This document shows positions 5,755 to 13,035 of a stretch of 36,554 bases of DNA, one piece after another. The position numbers and the translations under genes were made by a program. The notes under the pieces are model-generated. The model saw nothing but the letters and a program-made list of their open reading frames with translations. It had not been told where the DNA came from and did not search any database. Numbering within the stretch: the first letter of the stretch is position 1; the number at the start of each line of letters is the position of its first letter. The stretch comes from a virus: IMG/VR virus record IMGVR_UViG_3300009194_000027, positions 1 through 36,554 of that record; one strand, given 5' to 3'.

Positions 5755-6210
5755 TTACTGGCATACAATTCCACGGGGTGTTGCTAACAACACGTCGCTT
5801 AGGTACTGACCTGGACGAAGTTCGATTTGGTGCGCACCTGCAGTTGGGATCTTACAGTCGCGAAGAAGGGAGTCCCAGTTCTCGCCCATATAGCGAAGAA
5901 ATCGAATATCAGACCCCCGGTCAATAAAACGGTCGATGTATTCTTCGAAGCAATCGACCGAGGGATAGACCAGGTAATAGGACCACTGGTAGACCTCTAA
6001 CACGTGGCGGAGGTGACGACTCGATGACACCATAACGGAGTGTTGTTGTTGTAAATGAGACTCTATCGCCTTACCGTAGTTGAAGGGAAAGTCCTCGGCG
6101 TGCAGGTAACCGCTTATGTCTAGGTCCCAGACGCTGGTTCCCGGAACCGCCTGTTTTTGAAAAAAGGACTTCCCCACGCCGGGGAAGCCACTGACAATAC
6201 GCCGTACCAT
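5755..6210 (-). CDS. P-loop nucleotide kinase-like protein
   Basis: This 151-residue protein begins with a Walker A motif (GFPGVGKS, residues 8-15) right after the N-terminal beta strand, as in small phage nucleoside/nucleotide kinase-like P-loop proteins. It also has a hydrophobic strand ending SVMVSSSRH and a VYPSVDCFEEYIDRFIDRG segment of the kind seen in these proteins. I start it at ATG 6210, one base after the stop of the radical SAM gene, because the P-loop then sits in its normal N-terminal place; in-frame upstream ATGs at 6243 and 6282 would add residues without a better ribosome site. It closes the seven-gene operon. Its substrate is unknown: a nucleotide, or possibly the modified protein. 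Confidence 0.7.
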   Translation of the reverse strand: MVRRIVSGFPGVGKSFFQKQAVPGTSVWDLDISGYLHAEDFPFNYGKAIESHLQQQHSVMVSSSRHLRHVLEVYQWSYYLVYPSVDCFEEYIDRFIDRGSDIRFLRYMGENWDSLLRDCKIPTAGAHQIELRPGQYLSDVLLATPRGIVCQ

Positions 6211-6211
6211 C

Positions 6212-7300
6212 TCAACTATCCCGTGCGATGACGTTATCTTCATTAACGTAGGGGGTGGGGATGAGTTGTCCGGTGAGTCCATTCGCTTCGATGATTTTGG
6301 GGGCCAGCGTTTTCATCTTCCGACAGTGTTGTTCCACCAACCCTAACCGTTTGTGGTCCCGAATGGTTTTCCGACACCCATTGCAGATACCGAACAAAGG
6401 ACACCCAAAACAGCTCTCTTTCATTGCGGTCAGTTCGGGGTCAGACTGTAAGGGAAAAAACTGCTCGCCCTTCATTTCAGCATCGAAGTCGATACGGTGA
6501 CTGTCGTCGTCTGCCAGTGCCGGACAACTGTAGTATCGCCCTGACGGCTGCAGGGTACGGATTCCCTGATCACACGTCCGTGACAGAGGACACACGGTCA
6601 ACTCATCCCGCAGTTTTCGCATCATCTGCCGTGTGTTATGTTCCCATTGTGCCAGTCCTCGTTCCCACAACTCTACGTAATGGGCGTACATGTCGGCGAG
6701 TAAATAAAGGTGGCCCTCGTTGCCCATGGTGATGGATTTGTATTGAACGACAGGTCCCGATGCCATGGCGTAGTTGACTTTACTGTCAACGCCCATCTCC
6801 TTGGCTAGTTCCACCGTCTGGACCACCGTATCAGCGTTATGTTCATCGATGACCGCGATAAAGCCTGGACGATATCCACACACTTCAAGTAACAAGTCGG
6901 AAACCTTCCAGAACTCACCAGCGGTAAAAGGTGTTAAATCCCCCTTCAGTCGTTTTCCGCCGAATTGGAAACTGGTCATCACAAAGAATCGTGGATGTTG
7001 AAACACCGCACGCCAGCGTTCGGGATTTTTATAGAAGGGCCACAAGTTGCTGGTGATTGATACCGTTGCCGGTAAATCGTTATCGTCGAGGAACGCCAAT
7101 AGCTCGGTATAATACGCTGGTGGCATCATCAGTGGATCACCACCGTTGACAATGATGGTCCTAGTTTCCGGATAACGCAGCAGAAACCGTTTGACCTCTT
7201 CAAGCGGTAGTTCATCCCCGGCGTCGTCACTTATCGAGGTACTCGAACAAAACGTGCATTTAAAATTACACCGCTCTGTGGGTTTTATTACCAGATCCAT
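6212..7300 (-). CDS. Radical SAM enzyme with SPASM-type C-terminus (rSAM 1)
   Basis: This 362-residue protein is a radical S-adenosylmethionine enzyme. Cys11, Cys15 and Cys18 form the CxxxCxxC motif (CNFKCTFC) for the 4Fe-4S cluster that cleaves SAM, and NGGDP is the glycine-rich SAM-binding motif. The C-terminal third has many Cys in a SPASM/twitch-like arrangement (CPLSRTC, YYSCPAL, then CFGCPLFGICNGC and a final HC), which would hold auxiliary clusters. SPASM enzymes commonly modify ribosomally made peptides or proteins. It starts at ATG 7300 with a GAGG site, 6 bp after the upstream gene. A second rSAM gene, a hydroxylase and a Cys/His-repeat fibre share the operon, so I infer that it modifies the fibre. 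Confidence 0.88.
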   Translation of the reverse strand: MDLVIKPTERCNFKCTFCSSTSISDDAGDELPLEEVKRFLLRYPETRTIIVNGGDPLMMPPAYYTELLAFLDDNDLPATVSITSNLWPFYKNPERWRAVFQHPRFFVMTSFQFGGKRLKGDLTPFTAGEFWKVSDLLLEVCGYRPGFIAVIDEHNADTVVQTVELAKEMGVDSKVNYAMASGPVVQYKSITMGNEGHLYLLADMYAHYVELWERGLAQWEHNTRQMMRKLRDELTVCPLSRTCDQGIRTLQPSGRYYSCPALADDDSHRIDFDAEMKGEQFFPLQSDPELTAMKESCFGCPLFGICNGCRKTIRDHKRLGLVEQHCRKMKTLAPKIIEANGLTGQLIPTPYVNEDNVIARDS

Positions 7301-7306
7301 GTGACC

Positions 7307-8389
7307 TCACGTTCTATTAACCACCCAAGCTGGGCGAATGACTGGTTGTGCATTGCGTTTGCACTGTTGCACCCAAAATAAAAGGTTCATGGTGAATGTC
7401 CGCATTTCTCGGCCTGGTACCAACAACGTGAACCGATCGACCTGACGAAACCCATTCAGGTACCCGCTCAAAAGCTCAGTATCGTCCTGGATCTCCAGTA
7501 AGGTGACGGGTAATAGCAGTTCCTGGAGGTTGGCCTCAGGATCTATGATGGGGGCGAATGTCTTCTGTAGACGTCGCTGATCATGAATGTACTGAGCCTT
7601 GAATTCCGCCAGAAAATCGGGATCGCTCAACTGATCGTACAGCTCAGGACCGACACCACTCAGGTGGAGACCGTCAATCTCACGCAGGGGGTCTTTACCC
7701 GGCCCGGGTTTGGTGGGAGCACCACCCAAGATGGTTTCAAGATGTGCTGAGTAATACAGAAACCGCAGCCGATTATCCAGGGAGGTCACGATGTTGGTTA
7801 ACACACGACGTAAACGTTCGCGCACTTCCCCAGCCACATCAGCCATGTCGGTATCGCCCGAAAGGAACCCGATCAGCTGGTATTCCAACGGGAGATTATC
7901 CTTGTGGGCGGCCACGAATTCCACGACGTCGGAGCGAACCGGGACATCTACATGATAGTGACGTTTAAGGCGGTTTTCGAGGTAGCTCGCACGTTGCCAG
8001 TCAAATTCGGGTTCGGAAAAGCTCCGGTTTATATTGAAGATGAAGTACAGTTCTTGAAGTTGGGCATAAGTTACCTCAGGAAACACGTGTTTCATCCAAA
8101 ACACAAAGAGTCCGACCAGCACATCGTCGTCACAGTAAATAACCACCTTCTGATCAGTCTGTGCTAACTGCGGGAGTAACTTGGGAAACTCTTCGGCAAT
8201 AAACGCTTCGCCGTCCTGAGTATGGCGCCACGTCTTGGGAAGATCAGTGATTCCCAGCTCTTTCGCCAGGATATCGGTTGACGACCCCAGATATTCGTCG
8301 GCTGCCTCCTTCCCTACCACAATCCGGTCGTGCTCGCCGTTAAGATTGTCGATATGATCAAGATAAATGCGGTTAAACAGCTGAAACAT
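7307..8389 (-). CDS. Unknown 360-aa protein of the modification operon
   Basis: I do not recognise this protein. It is soluble, with no signal peptide or membrane segment. Visible features are a hydrophobic strand with acidic residues (VVIYCDDDVLVGLFVFW, about residues 85-100), a long helical middle with many Arg and Leu, and a C-terminal part ending in a Trp/Arg-rich stretch. I start it at ATG 8389, preceded by AAGGAACTCG, rather than at an upstream in-frame ATG; it overlaps the end of the preceding gene by 17 bp, suggesting coupled translation. Its place between the fibre and rSAM 1 makes it a candidate accessory, scaffold or recognition protein of the modification system. No function can be read from the sequence. 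Confidence 0.7.
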   Translation of the reverse strand: MFQLFNRIYLDHIDNLNGEHDRIVVGKEAADEYLGSSTDILAKELGITDLPKTWRHTQDGEAFIAEEFPKLLPQLAQTDQKVVIYCDDDVLVGLFVFWMKHVFPEVTYAQLQELYFIFNINRSFSEPEFDWQRASYLENRLKRHYHVDVPVRSDVVEFVAAHKDNLPLEYQLIGFLSGDTDMADVAGEVRERLRRVLTNIVTSLDNRLRFLYYSAHLETILGGAPTKPGPGKDPLREIDGLHLSGVGPELYDQLSDPDFLAEFKAQYIHDQRRLQKTFAPIIDPEANLQELLLPVTLLEIQDDTELLSGYLNGFRQVDRFTLLVPGREMRTFTMNLLFWVQQCKRNAQPVIRPAWVVNRT

Positions 8390-9104
8390 TATCGAGTTCC
8401 TTTTGTAATGCGGCAATGTCTGCATGGATGAGCTCACCAGATTCCACCATGGACTCCGGGTCCTCGTTATAAACATGACTTATGACACAAACGGGATTAT
8501 CCGAATTAACCCAGTAGTTTTCTAACGTGGAGCCTTTGAACACCGGTTTATCGAAGAAGTGCGGATAGTAGCTCAACCGGGTAGGGTCGGGTTCCAACAT
8601 CACCAAGGCGAGGTCGTCATAGGCCAACAACTTAACAAAGTTGATACCCCGCAAATCGGTGGTGGGGTTCTGAGGAAACATCGTTGCATCGACACCGGCC
8701 TCACGGGCACTCGCGTAGAGTCCCAATGACTCGACCAGACTCAACCATTGAGTGATAGTCTCACGCATATCGGAATCGACAATGATGTCGTGGTAATCAA
8801 GACCTGACGCTGGCTGGAGTCCCTTGATCTGCATGAGCAGTTCCAAAACAGAGATTTCCAACTGACGGAAGTCGTGCAGCATGGGAGATTGCATATACGC
8901 GCGAATCAATGCGTAAGCCCCCTCCACGGTATCGAAATGAAACTCTATGGTAACGCCGAGATTGGTCAGGTACGTCAGGAGGGCTTGGGGGGATAACGAC
9001 GATTCGTCCACATTAATGACCACCTCGTCCTTAAAGCCGTTCATGATAATGGACTTAAGGGTAGCGCTGGGGATCGGGGCGGTCGTGGTGATCGGTTCTG
9101 ACAT
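8373..9104 (-). CDS. Unknown 243-aa protein of the modification operon
   Basis: I do not recognise this protein. The N-terminal ~60 residues contain a beta-alpha-beta-like pattern (DEVVINVDESSLSPQALLTYL, then VTIEFHFDT), which could be a small recognition domain. The middle is helical and the C-terminal region is aspartate and tyrosine rich (RLSYYPHFFDKP). It starts at ATG 9104 with an AGGAGT site 9 nt upstream, 20 bp after the fibre gene, and overlaps the next gene by 17 bp. Being directly downstream of the putative substrate, it could bind or guide the fibre during modification, but this is inference from position only. Confidence 0.7.
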   Translation of the reverse strand: MSEPITTTAPIPSATLKSIIMNGFKDEVVINVDESSLSPQALLTYLTNLGVTIEFHFDTVEGAYALIRAYMQSPMLHDFRQLEISVLELLMQIKGLQPASGLDYHDIIVDSDMRETITQWLSLVESLGLYASAREAGVDATMFPQNPTTDLRGINFVKLLAYDDLALVMLEPDPTRLSYYPHFFDKPVFKGSTLENYWVNSDNPVCVISHVYNEDPESMVESGELIHADIAALQKELDNVSAV

Positions 9105-9124
9105 GAATGCGGTACTCCTAACGA

Positions 9125-10072
9125 TTAGGGATTCAGACGTTGCTCGATGCCATCAACGCGGTCACTGAGCGATCGGTGGTGGCGATGCAGTTCCTTCAGG
9201 GCGGCAGCTAAAAGTACCGTTACCTTGGCATAGTTGACCGTTAAATAGCCGTCCCGGTGTTCTTCGACCACATCCGGCATGATGTGGGCCAGATCCTGGG
9301 CGATAAACGCATGCTCGCGACGGGGTTTAAACCGCTCTCCCGAAGGATCTATCTGGCGCGCAGTGGTATTCCATTCGTGAGTGACTGTCCGGAGTTCCTC
9401 CAGCTTTGCTAATGCTTGAGGGATGTCTTCGAAGTTCATCTTCAGTCGCTCATCAGAATCGGTGCCGTCGCCGGTCCCTGGGCTATCCCCATGACAAGAA
9501 TCATGACAGGAACTGTGGCAGCTGGTGTGACAAAAGGTCTTACTGATACTGACTGTTTGGTTACGGATCTTACTGACCTCGCCACATACCGCCTTCACCC
9601 AACGGATCGTCGCTGGCCAACTGATATCGCCTTTACCTGCATTTGGATCTTCCGCAGAGGGGTCGGGAACAGACCGCTTATACCCACTGTTTAGATGTCC
9701 GATACCTGAGGTATTGGCAAACACGATGTAGTAGGTGGGTCCCACCCGTGAACCACCGTCACTACTTCTAGGGTTATTGTATTGATAGCGCATGTAAATA
9801 CTAACGCGGCGGATGACCGTGTAAGCGGCGGCGTGTGCAAGTATCTCATTACGTACCTGGGCTGAGCGGATGTCCCCACCAAAGCTTGCTGCACTGGGAC
9901 TGGAGTAAACACCACTGGTTGACCCACCGAACAGACTACTGTAAGTTGAGTTAGCCAGTCCATTGTAGTTGGGAGGCCAATTGTTGGTCCCCCAATTTAT
10001 ACCGCCATTAAGGTAGTTCCTAATGTAGGTATTGTGCATATTGACGATATCTTGGGGACGAATGTCTGCCAT
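9125..10072 (-). CDS. Tail fibre protein with Cys-His-x-Ser array and S74 intramolecular chaperone
   Basis: This 315-residue protein has three parts. Residues 1-165 are a Gly/Ser/Asn/Tyr-rich fibre-like region with aromatic strands. Residues 181-196 are CHTSCHSSCHDSCHGD, four Cys-His units spaced by four residues, followed by a short Gly/Asp linker. From residue 206 (SDERLK) to the end is a Peptidase_S74-type intramolecular chaperone: SDxxLK start, EHAFIAQDLAHIMP, a YLTVNYAKVTVLLAAALKEL helix and a C-terminal coiled coil. S74 domains trimerise fibres and cut themselves off at their N-terminal end, which would leave the Cys-His array at the distal tip of the mature trimer. It starts at ATG 10072 (GGAGT site) between rSAM 2 and the unknown genes. 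Likely substrate of the operon's enzymes (inference). Confidence 0.85.
   Translation of the reverse strand: MADIRPQDIVNMHNTYIRNYLNGGINWGTNNWPPNYNGLANSTYSSLFGGSTSGVYSSPSAASFGGDIRSAQVRNEILAHAAAYTVIRRVSIYMRYQYNNPRSSDGGSRVGPTYYIVFANTSGIGHLNSGYKRSVPDPSAEDPNAGKGDISWPATIRWVKAVCGEVSKIRNQTVSISKTFCHTSCHSSCHDSCHGDSPGTGDGTDSDERLKMNFEDIPQALAKLEELRTVTHEWNTTARQIDPSGERFKPRREHAFIAQDLAHIMPDVVEEHRDGYLTVNYAKVTVLLAAALKELHRHHRSLSDRVDGIEQRLNP
9485..9532 (-). repeat. Four-unit Cys-His-x-Ser coding array
   Basis: Sixteen codons encode CHTS-CHSS-CHDS-CHGD. The units use different synonymous codons (TGT/TGC, CAC/CAT, AGC/TCC/TCT), so the periodicity is kept at the protein level rather than reflecting a recent DNA duplication. 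The array sits about 10 residues before the S74 domain. Confidence 0.9.
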
Positions 10073-10083
10073 GATTTACTCCA

Positions 10084-11130
10084 TCAGGATAGGTTTAAAA
10101 TAGGAATATGACGCGTGTGGTCGTATTGTTCGTCACGAACATACCGCAGGAGATGTTTGAGACCGCCACACCGATCGCCCTGCCAAGGAAGCTGATGGCA
10201 GTCGCCTCCACACAGGTGAAACACATCGCATTGCAAACATTGGGGATGAAAATCCAACTCGTCGGCGATTTCTTCCAAACGTCCATCGCTGGTAAGGAAC
10301 TGATCGACGCCATCGTTGAGATGAGCGAAGTTATTTGATCCTGCAGTATTAGGACAACCTGCTAGGGAACCATCAGCGTTCATGGTCACTAGGTTCTGTT
10401 CACAGTTACGGCAGTTGGTATCCGTTTTTACGGTCTGCGTTTGAAGCTTTTTACGGATTAGGTCTAGGGTGACGATACTGAACGACCATTCCGTTTTACG
10501 TTCTTGATAACGTCTGTACACTTCAACGAACCACTGGTCTTGGACCTCATTATCCGGAAATATTTCCGGATTACGTTCGGCATTGCCGTCTAAGGTTAAC
10601 CGTTCCAATCGAATGCGTTCTGGACCGAGACGGTGCATTTCATCAAGAAACGCATCAATATCCATATCGACCAAGGCTTTGTTCACACTCACGAATAAAC
10701 AGCATTCCAAACCGGAACGTTTAAGCAGCGCGAGGTTGTATTCCCATAACCGCTTCTGAGTTGCAGTTTCGAATCGGGTATCGACGTCCCAGCTGGTACC
10801 GACTGACCCTAGACGTTTGAGAAAGTTTAACTTTCGTTCGTCGAGCTTTATTACGAGGTTGGTGGTGATACTAATCCCAATATTGGGTCGTCCACTGTAG
10901 GTATCGACAAAACGTTCCAAATCTTCCATCGGTGCCAAGAACGGTTCTCCACCATGTAAGATCAACCGGTAGTGTTCATCGGGACCGTAGTGATCCATAA
11001 AGTCATCAATCCATCGACTCGCCGCATCGACATCCCATCGCACCTTACTGCCATTACGACCGCTCGTAAAACAGTGGTCACAATGTAGATTGCAGGTATC
11101 TGACGTCTTTACATATATCGCTTTTGACAT
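10084..11130 (-). CDS. Radical SAM enzyme with SPASM-type C-terminus (rSAM 2)
   Basis: This 348-residue protein has the radical SAM motif CNLHCDHC (Cys13, Cys17, Cys20), a canonical HGGEP SAM-binding motif and a SPASM-like C-terminal Cys set (NCRNCEQNL, LAGCPNTAG, then CLQCDVFHLCGGDCHQL and RCGGLKHLLRYV). This is the arrangement of peptide-modifying enzymes such as sactionine or cyclophane synthases and anaerobic sulfatase-maturase relatives. It starts at ATG 11130, 9 bp after the hydroxylase gene, and its stop is 11 bp before the fibre start, so enzyme and proposed substrate are neighbours. It is clearly distinct from rSAM 1, suggesting two separate modifications or a paired system. The bond it makes cannot be read from sequence. 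Confidence 0.9.
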   Translation of the reverse strand: MSKAIYVKTSDTCNLHCDHCFTSGRNGSKVRWDVDAASRWIDDFMDHYGPDEHYRLILHGGEPFLAPMEDLERFVDTYSGRPNIGISITTNLVIKLDERKLNFLKRLGSVGTSWDVDTRFETATQKRLWEYNLALLKRSGLECCLFVSVNKALVDMDIDAFLDEMHRLGPERIRLERLTLDGNAERNPEIFPDNEVQDQWFVEVYRRYQERKTEWSFSIVTLDLIRKKLQTQTVKTDTNCRNCEQNLVTMNADGSLAGCPNTAGSNNFAHLNDGVDQFLTSDGRLEEIADELDFHPQCLQCDVFHLCGGDCHQLPWQGDRCGGLKHLLRYVRDEQYDHTRHIPILNLS

Positions 11131-11139
11131 GAAAGTCTC

Positions 11140-11805
11140 TCAGCTGATGGTGTAGCCTTCCCGAAACCAGCTGACCAACACAAATTTATCAGTGGTGTGT
11201 GTGGCTAATGAAGAATGGAGGGTCAAGCTGTCGGGCGTGGTCATCGGATAAGAAAAGAAGAGTAACGTACCGAGGCGTGGGGTTATACTGAGTCCCAGAC
11301 GATCAAAGACGGTTGCTCCTTCTCCATCGGTATCGTTAAGGTACAGAACGACTGTGGCGATCCGTTGGCCACCCGTGGTCCCGTGGCGCTCGACTAGCGT
11401 GTTCTCTGCAAAGAAGTCACAGTGTGGTTTAAACTCTTCGCCGGGTCGGTAATGTAAGAAATTCGGATTTTCGGTCTTAACCGTGGGCCACAGCGTTAAA
11501 CGCTCGATCCGTTGCGAGAGTTCCTGCAATAGAGGATCGTCCTCGACGGAAAGAAAACAGCCTCTGGAGGTTCGTCGTGGCGAAGGTCGTTCTACCCCAT
11601 CGTCCCCAATTGTTACCGACGGGACTGCCTGGTCGCGATACCGTTCGATAAGGTACTCACATTCTTCCTTGGTGGCGAATCCATCAATCAGTGCAATATG
11701 GGGGTCTTCCATCAATAAGCGCAGTTGGCAAGAGACGGTATGTTTCACCATATCCAGTCCAGTTTGGCTGATTATAGGTGTGTTCCGGGGTGGTTGGTTG
11801 CTCAT
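11140..11805 (-). CDS. 2-oxoglutarate/Fe(II) oxygenase, prolyl 4-hydroxylase-like
   Basis: This 221-residue protein should hydroxylate a side chain using O2, Fe(II) and 2-oxoglutarate. It shows the prolyl-4-hydroxylase core: YRPGEEFKPHCDFF with His128 and Asp130 as iron ligands, GGQRIATVVLYLND, GEGATVF, and the distal iron ligand His197 in LTLHSS followed by Lys207 in DKFVLVSWFRE for the 2-oxoglutarate carboxylate. The length suits a single-domain enzyme. It is the first gene of the seven-gene operon, 9 bp before rSAM 2, with a TATAGGGAGA promoter-like motif about 56 bp upstream. The ribosome site is weak. I infer a protein substrate, possibly the fibre, though phage 2OG enzymes can also act on nucleic acids. 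Confidence 0.88.
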   Translation of the reverse strand: MSNQPPRNTPIISQTGLDMVKHTVSCQLRLLMEDPHIALIDGFATKEECEYLIERYRDQAVPSVTIGDDGVERPSPRRTSRGCFLSVEDDPLLQELSQRIERLTLWPTVKTENPNFLHYRPGEEFKPHCDFFAENTLVERHGTTGGQRIATVVLYLNDTDGEGATVFDRLGLSITPRLGTLLFFSYPMTTPDSLTLHSSLATHTTDKFVLVSWFREGYTIS

Positions 11806-11913: not shown

Positions 11914-13035
11914 TTACACCCACTGGGCCGGGAATACATGGCGCCATGCCCCGCCAGCGTAGATATAAACATTCTGGCCAGAGGTTTTAATTGCGCCCTC
12001 AGATGCCACGTTCAGACGAGGGTACCGATAATCGAACCAGTTACTTTCAGAGGCCCGCCAGATGGCACTATGGACGTTCGCCGGAGTCATGTAGGTTGTG
12101 TCGTTGTAGTTGCCACCCGGAACACCCGCCTGTTCGGCCGTGTAGGTCGACGCCGGCGCGTAGTTCGCAACCTTCCCAAGACCGACCTGTGACTTGGTCA
12201 CGTTATGGGGATTACTCTTATTGGCTTTGTGGGCATAAAACTCTCGACCCAGATGGTAGTCAATCCCCTCCACCAGTCCAGCAACACTCACGAAACGGTT
12301 AGTAGCTGAACCACCCCGAATCTCAGTCAACGTCGCGGTAGGGTAATTATCGACAAGTCCCAGCCCCACCTGGGCTTTGGTAACACGATGGGGGTTGGTG
12401 TAGTCGGCTTTATGGTCTTTAAAACGGGAATCTAGGTCTTGGATGAGCGCAAGGTTATCTTCGTAGAGCTGCTGAAAATACCGGCGCATTTCGTCAAAAG
12501 CTGACTGATCACCGACCATCACCGCTTGAGTAATTCGTTCCAGTTGGACCACGAGGTACTCAAAACCATAAAGTTCCCACAACGCATGGAGGTGTCCCCC
12601 AGGTGGATATACACTCGGTTTACCGATGATGTTTGCCCACTCAACTGGCCGTGTATCATCCGCCAGGGTTTGGATCACCTGCTCCAGGGCATTGATTGAT
12701 TGCGCATAGTCCCCACCCACACACTGATAATCAACATAGACTTCAGTGCTAACATTGGGGTTCGTGACAACAACCGCACCACAAACTTCAAGTCCTGACC
12801 GCGTGGTCGCTTCCTCGTAGAGGTACGTTGAGATGTAGTCGGTATGGGGGGTTAACTTCGTCCCACTGGCATCTCTAACAACCAGACCTTCGGTATAAAA
12901 GCTACCCTGATCGAGCACGAATACCCGCATCCCGTCTCGAGCATTATCCACCAAAGAGTGAGGCTCTGAGATAATCAGGTTATCGGGACTGGTCCCCGTG
13001 AGGTCCAGTGGGTATTTTTTCAGTATAGGTGTCAT
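11914..13035 (-). CDS. Tail fibre protein with NPHxVTKxQVGLG repeats (short form)
   Basis: This 373-residue fibre protein has an N-terminal baseplate-attachment-like domain (residues 1-165), a short helical stretch (residues 165-210) and two phage tail-fibre repeats, NPHRVTKAQVGLGLVDNY (residues 214-231) and NPHNVTKSQVGLGKVANY (275-292). These match the Phage_fiber_2 type seen in long tail fibres. The C-terminus ends in an aromatic beta segment (GAWRHVFPAQW). The N-terminal domain resembles that of the next gene (LVV.D..GTK..., YQ.VGG, a PV.WA.I segment and PP..H), so the two are paralogs that probably bind the same site. It starts at ATG 13035 with a GGAGG site. Confidence 0.85.
   Translation of the reverse strand: MTPILKKYPLDLTGTSPDNLIISEPHSLVDNARDGMRVFVLDQGSFYTEGLVVRDASGTKLTPHTDYISTYLYEEATTRSGLEVCGAVVVTNPNVSTEVYVDYQCVGGDYAQSINALEQVIQTLADDTRPVEWANIIGKPSVYPPGGHLHALWELYGFEYLVVQLERITQAVMVGDQSAFDEMRRYFQQLYEDNLALIQDLDSRFKDHKADYTNPHRVTKAQVGLGLVDNYPTATLTEIRGGSATNRFVSVAGLVEGIDYHLGREFYAHKANKSNPHNVTKSQVGLGKVANYAPASTYTAEQAGVPGGNYNDTTYMTPANVHSAIWRASESNWFDYRYPRLNVASEGAIKTSGQNVYIYAGGAWRHVFPAQWV

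Follow-up and report, generated by a model that had tools for sequence, protein, structure and literature searches.

Does the presence of two radical SAM enzymes and an oxygenase packed around a tail-fibre-associated gene in a virus mean that a virion protein is enzymatically modified? This question is raised by a 36,554-nucleotide stretch of DNA (positions 1 to 36,554 of the IMG/VR record IMGVR_UViG_3300009194_000027, hereafter the window), in which a sequence-only reading had noted, at 5755-11805, seven closely spaced minus-strand genes encoding a P4H-like 2OG/Fe(II) oxygenase, two SPASM-type radical SAM (rSAM) proteins, an S74 fibre with a Cys-His-x-Ser array, two unknown proteins and a P-loop kinase-like protein. 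From these features it had inferred a RiPP-style system acting on the fibre tip to tune phage adsorption, by analogy with bacterial His-Xaa-Ser systems. We find that the operon is present as described. The interpretation placed on it is supported only in part: comparative evidence strongly supports the idea that the enzymes act on the array, but the nature of the substrate, the distribution of the system and its relationship to the His-Xaa-Ser system all required correction.

We first re-examined the gene content of the operon, and all seven open reading frames were recovered on the minus strand. In transcription order, the first encodes the 2OG oxygenase (11140-11805), which matches PF13640 with 48.8 bits against a threshold of 27 and possesses the HxD...H iron ligands, in the form HCD. 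It is followed by rSAM1 (10084-11130; phrog_1802), which matches PF04055 with 31.7 bits against 29.5 and exceeds the cut-off of 27 for the SPASM model TIGR04085 with 32.0 bits. Next is the array-containing protein (9125-10072), which carries a PF13884 peptidase S74 domain (44.8 bits against a gathering score of 22), and then two conserved proteins of unknown function, of 243 amino acids (8373-9104) and 389 amino acids (7307-8476). The operon continues with rSAM2 (6212-7300), which matches PF04055 with 45.8 bits but reaches only 20.2 bits against TIGR04085, below cut-off, although the SPASM-like C-terminal cysteine pattern is present in 59 of 60 rSAM2 relatives, and ends with a P-loop protein (5755-6282; GFPGVGKS, phrog_4182). 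The first three intergenic gaps are 9, 11 and 20 bp. The 389-amino-acid gene probably starts at an internal ATG at 8389, because its relatives align from that point, which gives a 17-bp overlap with the preceding gene, and a 6-bp gap then separates it from rSAM2. The P-loop frame as listed overlaps rSAM2 by 71 bp, whereas initiation at its Met25 (6210) would leave a gap of 1 bp. All seven genes have counterparts in the same order in a related locus, L004, but the P-loop protein does not belong to the more widely conserved set.

The putative substrate encoded at 9125-10072 comprises a folded body (residues 1-180), the array (residues 181-194; nucleotides 9491-9532; CHTSCHSSCHDSCH), a linker and a C-terminal S74 chaperone/protease domain (residues 206-315; nucleotides 9128-9457; PF13884 match 206-269). 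An AlphaFold2 model, computed as a monomer and not showing a fibre, predicts the body with pLDDT values mostly above 90 and the array as a disordered tail. In an alignment of 70 homologues with a mean column identity of 19%, the only invariant columns are C181, H182, C185, H186, C189 and H190, which places the array far beyond chance. Because this set was partly chosen by motif, we also considered the 26 evaluable loci fetched through rSAM1 alone: all 26 encode the array protein, 25 keep the array and one (L029) has a single H-to-N change. In loci L005 and L022, the array is expanded to many repeats. A scan for four-repeat arrays also returned many out-of-frame or low-complexity hits, which were set aside.

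We next asked whether the array and the enzymes occur together when the enzymes play no part in the search. A motif scan for CHxxCHxxCHxxRxRR gave 120 viral hits, of which 114, a minimum number of such loci, have the motif exactly at the C-terminus. In 111 of these, genes of the family lie nearby, and the other three are cut off by contig ends. As a control, in bacterial genomes 15 of 16 C-terminal hits lie in the cluster compared to 0 of 72 other hits (Fisher p = 5e-16), which rules out a chance origin of the motif. Among 50,697 named phage records, rSAM1, rSAM2 and the array protein occur in the same seven. The existence of relatives that keep the array but never the enzymes had been proposed beforehand as an observation that would count against the idea, and the outcome was the opposite, with array and enzymes found together in essentially every locus where both could be seen. 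These results also indicate that the system is not peculiar to this phage but is widespread in phages, and a chromosomal version occurs in some predatory bacteria, where it lies beside S74 pseudopilins.

The comparison further shows that the array is a C-terminal tail, normally ending in RxRR, and that the S74 domain is an addition specific to this window, as no other CHxS protein seen carries it; the description of the general substrate as an S74 fibre was therefore rejected. The window domain begins with S206 (SDERLK), which fits the SDxxxK catalytic motif described previously (PMC10769870). Predicted self-cleavage before S206 would leave ...CHGDSPGTGDGTD as the new C-terminus, resembling the natural end ...CHGDGPGNGGGV of the L004 protein. 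A different self-processing domain, Hint, is found behind the array in locus L208, indicating that such domains were added independently.

The genes surrounding the substrate are likewise conserved in order and adjacency, across diverse phages and on bacterial chromosomes. rSAM1 lies directly upstream of the substrate gene in 72 of 81 loci with room for it, mostly at a distance of -26 to +44 bp, and its relatives possess the CxxxCxxC motif in 105 of 105 cases and a full SPASM pattern in 104 of 105. rSAM2 is 57-60% identical to orthologues in the DT01 and FLC6 clusters, and CxxxCxxC is found in 57 of 60 of its relatives. The 243-amino-acid protein is encoded directly downstream of the substrate in 73 of 83 loci; its family was aligned from 57 sequences and its AlphaFold2 model has a pLDDT of 92. 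The 389-amino-acid protein belongs to a family of about 75 in the fetched loci and has no PDB or Pfam match. The oxygenase of the window has a homologue with 40% identity at the same place in L004, whereas 84 of 92 rSAM1 loci instead encode at this place a JmjC_2/cupin protein (PF08007), which matches the family of the ribosomal-oxygenase type enzymes YcfD, MINA53 and NO66 and keeps HxD...H in 78 of 78 cases. A JmjC_2 oxygenase is replaced at the same place by an unrelated 2OG oxygenase.

Several lines of evidence connect the array protein to the phage tail. Tail-fibre genes lie directly upstream of the cluster in nine of ten scanned loci, and the tenth matches the same fibre C-terminal family. 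In the window, the upstream gene (11914-13035, minus strand; phrog_2163/13857) encodes a tail-fibre-like protein ending in ...GGAWRHVFPAQWV, an ending shared by the fibres that precede this cluster in jumbo phages; it is a possible partner of the array protein. In addition, the virion-protein cluster of phage Atu_ph07 defined by mass spectrometry, 'CDS 170-215', begins at gp170, its CHxS protein, although this is only indirect evidence for its presence in the virion. Searches of solved structures with profiles of the substrate and the unknown proteins returned nothing convincing, and Foldseek and VIA-align comparisons of the AlphaFold2 models of the substrate and the 243-amino-acid protein gave no PDB match above noise (best Z 2.3 and 4.3), which need not mean that the folds are new. 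A search of BFVD found only relatives (a DT01-sized protein and Atu_ph07 gp170) and three ctijX18 proteins.

To place the system among known ones, we compared its components with curated families. The bacterial His-Xaa-Ser system (HxsA/B/C/D) also pairs a repeat of His and Ser residues near the end of a protein with radical SAM enzymes, but the resemblance is loose and membership was rejected: rSAM2 scores 24.7 bits against the 267.9 required for HxsC, neither the HxsB nor the HxsC model was among the 25 shown for rSAM1, no HxsA or other NCBIfam match was obtained for the window protein or for four relatives, and the array has a period of four with invariant Cys and lies in a phage tail context. 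The best curated matches of the rSAMs are SPASM peptide maturases, including the PapB ranthipeptide enzyme, DynA, CbpB and the YhhB/FxsB cyclophane enzymes, with which they share the radical SAM plus SPASM architecture. However, these scores are far below cut-off (55.0 of 340 for PapB with rSAM1; 44.5 of 450 for DynA with rSAM2), no curated maturase model reaches its threshold, and the putative substrate is a folded tail-associated protein of about 130-310 amino acids and not a short precursor. S74 fibre and spike proteins, such as the endosialidase CIMCD and the Bdellovibrio MAT fibres (PMC10769870), share the C-terminal S74 domain with the window protein, yet MAT fibres are not reported to be enzymatically modified. 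Clusters of rSAM genes have been noted in Campylobacter phages CP220/CPt10, the T4-like TARA_ERS488813_N000010, pelagimyophages, Aeromonas 332-Vera, Burkholderia FLC6 and S13, and Ralstonia RP12/RP31, in several cases in or next to structural or host-recognition genes, but as far as we could read none of these papers names a substrate, the CHxS motif or a virion-modifying role. Literature searches on CHxS arrays, phage RiPPs and rSAM enzymes with tail fibres, confined to open-access papers and thus weak evidence of absence, likewise gave no description of the system.

Taken together, we consider it probable that the operon makes and chemically matures a tail-fibre tip protein in a RiPP-like manner, its organization being that of a genetically encoded precursor with a conserved core beside its putative maturases. 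In this view, the rSAM enzymes (two here, up to six or seven in relatives) and the 2OG/Fe(II) oxygenase would modify the Cys/His residues of the exposed, disordered array, most plausibly by installing Cys- or His-centred carbon-sulfur or carbon-carbon links and hydroxylations, and the two unknown proteins would serve as substrate-binding or chaperone factors. The S74 domain would help the protein of this phage to trimerise and then cut itself off just behind the array, freeing the finished array as the C-terminal end that relatives possess by construction, and the finished tip would sit on the fibre encoded just upstream and take part in binding the host. Our analysis establishes the gene content, the co-occurrence, the synteny, the C-terminal position of the array and the invariance of its C and H residues, whereas the action of the enzymes on the array, the type of modification, trimerisation and S74 cleavage of this protein, its presence in the virion and its role in adsorption are inferred in the absence of mass spectrometry of any array peptide. 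Three proteins of the cluster have no known function, and a non-exhaustive search found no leader peptidase or recognisable RiPP recognition element.

Other explanations are possible but appear less likely. The array protein could be a RiPP precursor proper, whose modified tail is cut off to act as a free peptide in an antibacterial, signalling or superinfection exclusion role, with its position beside tail genes reflecting only late-gene timing. This would be in keeping with the several SPASM maturases, repeat core and unknown partners of the cluster and with the best curated matches of rSAM1, which are peptide maturases such as PapB, CbpB and YhhB. We regard it as unlikely, because no dedicated protease or exporter was seen among the annotated cluster genes (S74 here and Hint in L208 would remove a C-terminal part instead), the body is a conserved folded domain and not a short leader, and the S74 domain of this window, the fibre genes immediately upstream and the start of the Atu_ph07 virion cluster at this gene point to a structural role. 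Still less likely is that the array is an unmodified metal- or cluster-binding tip, comparable to the iron-binding His motifs of T4 gp37, and that the rSAM/2OG genes modify something else such as sugars, nucleotides or tRNA. Cys and His are typical metal ligands and only these residues are invariant, but this reading does not explain why the array protein lies directly between rSAM1 and the 243-amino-acid protein gene in most loci, why array and enzymes co-occur so strictly or why several SPASM-type enzymes are needed; metal binding after modification remains compatible with our preferred explanation. Finally, published phage papers treat many-rSAM clusters as unexplained or metabolic (PMC2853527, PMC5332604, PMC12390700), but that the rSAM genes are unrelated auxiliary metabolic genes that happen to sit near fibre genes is disfavoured by their conserved order and adjacency and by the bacterial-genome association, and we consider it very improbable.

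In its broadest form, a reading that we judge somewhat more likely than not, these observations may reflect a widespread, horizontally moving module in which phages and some predatory bacteria use dedicated radical SAM and 2OG enzymes to build a chemically modified, non-proteinogenic adhesive or metal-binding tip on the C-terminus of a tail-fibre protein, with self-cleaving S74 or Hint domains sometimes added to unmask it. This would be a previously undescribed way for a virus to finish the part that touches its host, and it predicts a mass shift on a known C-terminal peptide of a known protein in phages that are already in culture (pPa_SNUABM_DT01, FLC6, SURPRISE13, Atu_ph07 and Phosso). The system would also offer a very large natural set of substrate and enzyme variants for new peptide chemistry. 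If true, it would give a function to the unexplained many-rSAM clusters reported in jumbo, T4-like and pelagic phages, and it would mean that phages complete part of their host-contact apparatus with radical chemistry, a layer of adsorption biology that genome annotation of receptor-binding proteins does not see.

The 36,554-base virus record is a fragment, and its other genes, which encode internal head proteins, a baseplate assembly protein, a UvsX-like recombinase, an SbcC-like protein and virion structural proteins, fit a large, phiKZ-like myovirus. The sequence-only reading had described seven closely packed minus-strand genes between positions 5755 and 11805, and this observation held: the genes are present as described, with gaps or overlaps of at most 20 bp once conserved starts are used for two of them. 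All seven have counterparts in the same order in the viral contig L004, in which rSAM1 and rSAM2 are 71-72% identical to those of the window. The P-loop protein encoded at 5755-6282 (phrog_4182) is shared with L004 only.

We next asked which part of the array protein is conserved. The gene at 9125-10072 is homologous in its first 180 residues to smaller proteins in Burkholderia phage FLC6 and Pseudomonas phage pPa_SNUABM_DT01, which end in CHSSCHTSCHGSRGRR and CHTSCHTSCHSARGRR and have no S74 domain. We examined all 27 viral contigs retrieved through rSAM1 alone, of which 26 could be evaluated because contig L024 ends before the gene. Of these, 25 encode an intact array immediately downstream of rSAM1, whereas contig L029 (9040-9579) carries the natural variant CHTSCHSNCNCNRGRR, in which the third array His is Asn. 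In an alignment of 70 homologues the mean column identity is 19%, yet three Cys-His pairs are invariant. Part of that set was chosen by motif, but the tails retrieved through rSAM1 show the same, with C, H and RGRR in 20 of 20. In contigs L005 (9036-9740) and L022 (9034-9717), the arrays are expanded to many repeats with NVPV or NVV spacers and still end in RGRR. Additionally, a comparison with predicted structures in BFVD identified three larger phage proteins of Myoviridae sp. ctijX18 (A0A8S5USJ8, A0A8S5USV2 and A0A8S5USJ7) that share the predicted fold of the array protein's body.

To test the association between array and enzymes in a manner that does not use the enzymes, we scanned the DNA of viral contigs for CHxxCHxxCHxxRxRR without any stop codon in the pattern, which returned at least 120 stretches. 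In 114 of these 120, the motif lies in an ORF that ends exactly after RxRR. Cluster genes are present in the surrounding sequence for 111 of these 114, and in the other three the retrieved DNA stops within about 300 bases of the array gene. The same scan of bacterial and archaeal genomes gave 88 hits. Sixteen loci have the motif at the exact C-terminus and 15 of them lie in the cluster, the sixteenth being at a contig end. By contrast, none of the 72 other hits has any cluster gene (Fisher p = 5e-16). Among 50,697 named phage records, rSAM1, rSAM2 and the array protein are found in the same seven, namely FLC6, FLC8, SURPRISE13, pPa_SNUABM_DT01, Phosso and Atu_ph07 twice.

The common gene order of the cluster is JmjC_2/cupin oxygenase, rSAM1, array protein, unknown 243, unknown 389, further rSAM genes including rSAM2, and then often a PF13759-type 2OG oxygenase. 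rSAM1 is directly upstream of the array protein in 72 of 81 long-type loci with room, with gaps mostly between -26 and +44 bp, and unknown 243 is directly downstream in 73 of 83. rSAM1 keeps CxxxCxxC in 105 of 105 sequences and a full SPASM cysteine pattern in 104. We also found a second form of the cluster, in L033, L057, L066, L076, L100 and other loci, which has two tandem array proteins of about 127 aa directly behind a tail-fibre gene, followed by a different rSAM type. In L001 (2939-3847), and in similar ORFs in L028 and L075, a GIY-YIG nuclease-like gene lies between the fibre and the cluster, possibly a homing endonuclease that helps the module move.

The oxygenase position is informative with respect to the chemistry that may be involved. 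In 84 of 92 rSAM1 loci this place is taken by the cupin protein, which matches JmjC_2 and keeps HxD...H in 78 of 78, whereas the window and L004 have an unrelated P4H-like 2OG oxygenase there. We infer that replacement by a different enzyme of the same chemistry suggests that oxidation is part of the job. In addition, array proteins without the RxRR end (L004, L164, L208 and the window) come from loci without the JmjC_2 oxygenase, while the 84 JmjC_2 loci have RxRR. JmjC_2 might act on these arginines, although there are few independent cases and most loci were selected by a motif containing RxRR.

In this window only, an S74 domain follows the array. Its SDxxxK motif, which is described as catalytic in S74 proteins (PMC10769870), starts at S206, eleven residues behind the last Cys-His pair. 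Predicted cleavage at this site would leave ...CHGDSPGTGDGTD, close to the natural end of the L004 protein, ...CHGDGPGNGGGV. In L208 (1-1239) the array is followed by a Hint (autoprocessing) domain, and in L164 (1642-2865) it is followed by a Pro-Thr linker and a sequence that is Hint-like by eye. Self-processing domains have thus been added behind the array more than once, which fits a need for the array to end up at the free C-terminus.

To explore where the array protein works, we turned to the genes directly upstream of the oxygenase-rSAM1 pair. These encode large proteins, and nine of ten scanned match tail-fibre families, with the tenth matching the same C-terminal family, phrog_22593. 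In the tandem form, the fibre gene often ends 0 to 13 bp before the array gene. The upstream fibres share one of two endings, either GGAWRQVWPxxW in jumbo phages, including the window's own neighbour (11914-13035, minus strand), or an IALxxxxxGxVEVKV-like sequence. For Atu_ph07, virion proteins identified by mass spectrometry were reported to fall mainly in clusters including 'CDS 170-215' (PMC6102473). In the genome record gp170 is the CHxS protein, and the numbering agrees for the baseplate wedge and portal genes. This correspondence in numbering provides indirect evidence and suggests that gp170 was detected.

The cluster also extends beyond phages. In Bacteriovoracales it is chromosomal: on 382-kb and 219-kb contigs it is flanked by genes such as ribosomal protein S20, acyl-CoA dehydrogenase or pyruvate kinase, as identified by eye. 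The array and rSAM cluster of these Bacteriovoracales/Bdellovibrionaceae chromosomes (loci L323 and L324 on contig C7 of genome G001, L325 and L326 on contig C14 of genome G002, and L327) lies next to a pseudopilin-like protein with a C-terminal Peptidase S74 domain (PF13884), whose N_methyl motif is above cut-off in one of two, and a small protein ending GRHWVxVK. The motif is found in 5 of 129 genomes of that order, so it is an accessory trait. These bacteria are predators whose relatives use phage-like S74 fibres to recognise prey (PMC10769870), and a similar use here is an inference.

Unusual numbers of rSAM genes have been remarked on in phages, in some cases within structural or host-recognition regions. 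Aeromonas phage 332-Vera carries eight rSAM genes inside the structural cluster (PMC12390700), pelagimyophages carry rSAM cassettes in the host-recognition cluster (PMC7029224), a T4-like TARA genome carries 12 (PMC5332604), and Campylobacter phages CP220 and CPt10 carry 11 and 12, which were read as metabolic (PMC2853527). None of these papers, as far as read and within an open-access literature, gives a substrate or the CHxS motif. We consider the combination of substrate, context and enzymes to be new in kind; if, however, one regards any SPASM enzyme with a linked substrate as a RiPP system, the present cluster would instead count as a further form of such a system.

Thus far, our analysis establishes the co-occurrence, order and C-terminal position of the array and its accompanying genes, whereas modification of the array, hydroxylation, self-cleavage and the placement of the protein on the fibre are inferred. 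AlphaFold2 gives a confident body and a disordered array, as expected of an accessible substrate. The nearest curated relatives of rSAM1 make thioether or cyclophane links, but no model reaches its cut-off, so the chemistry cannot be transferred. In the view that we consider most likely, the maturases would act on the array, the oxygenase would add hydroxyl groups, the self-cleaving domain (where present) would unmask the end, and the finished tip would be carried on the upstream fibre.
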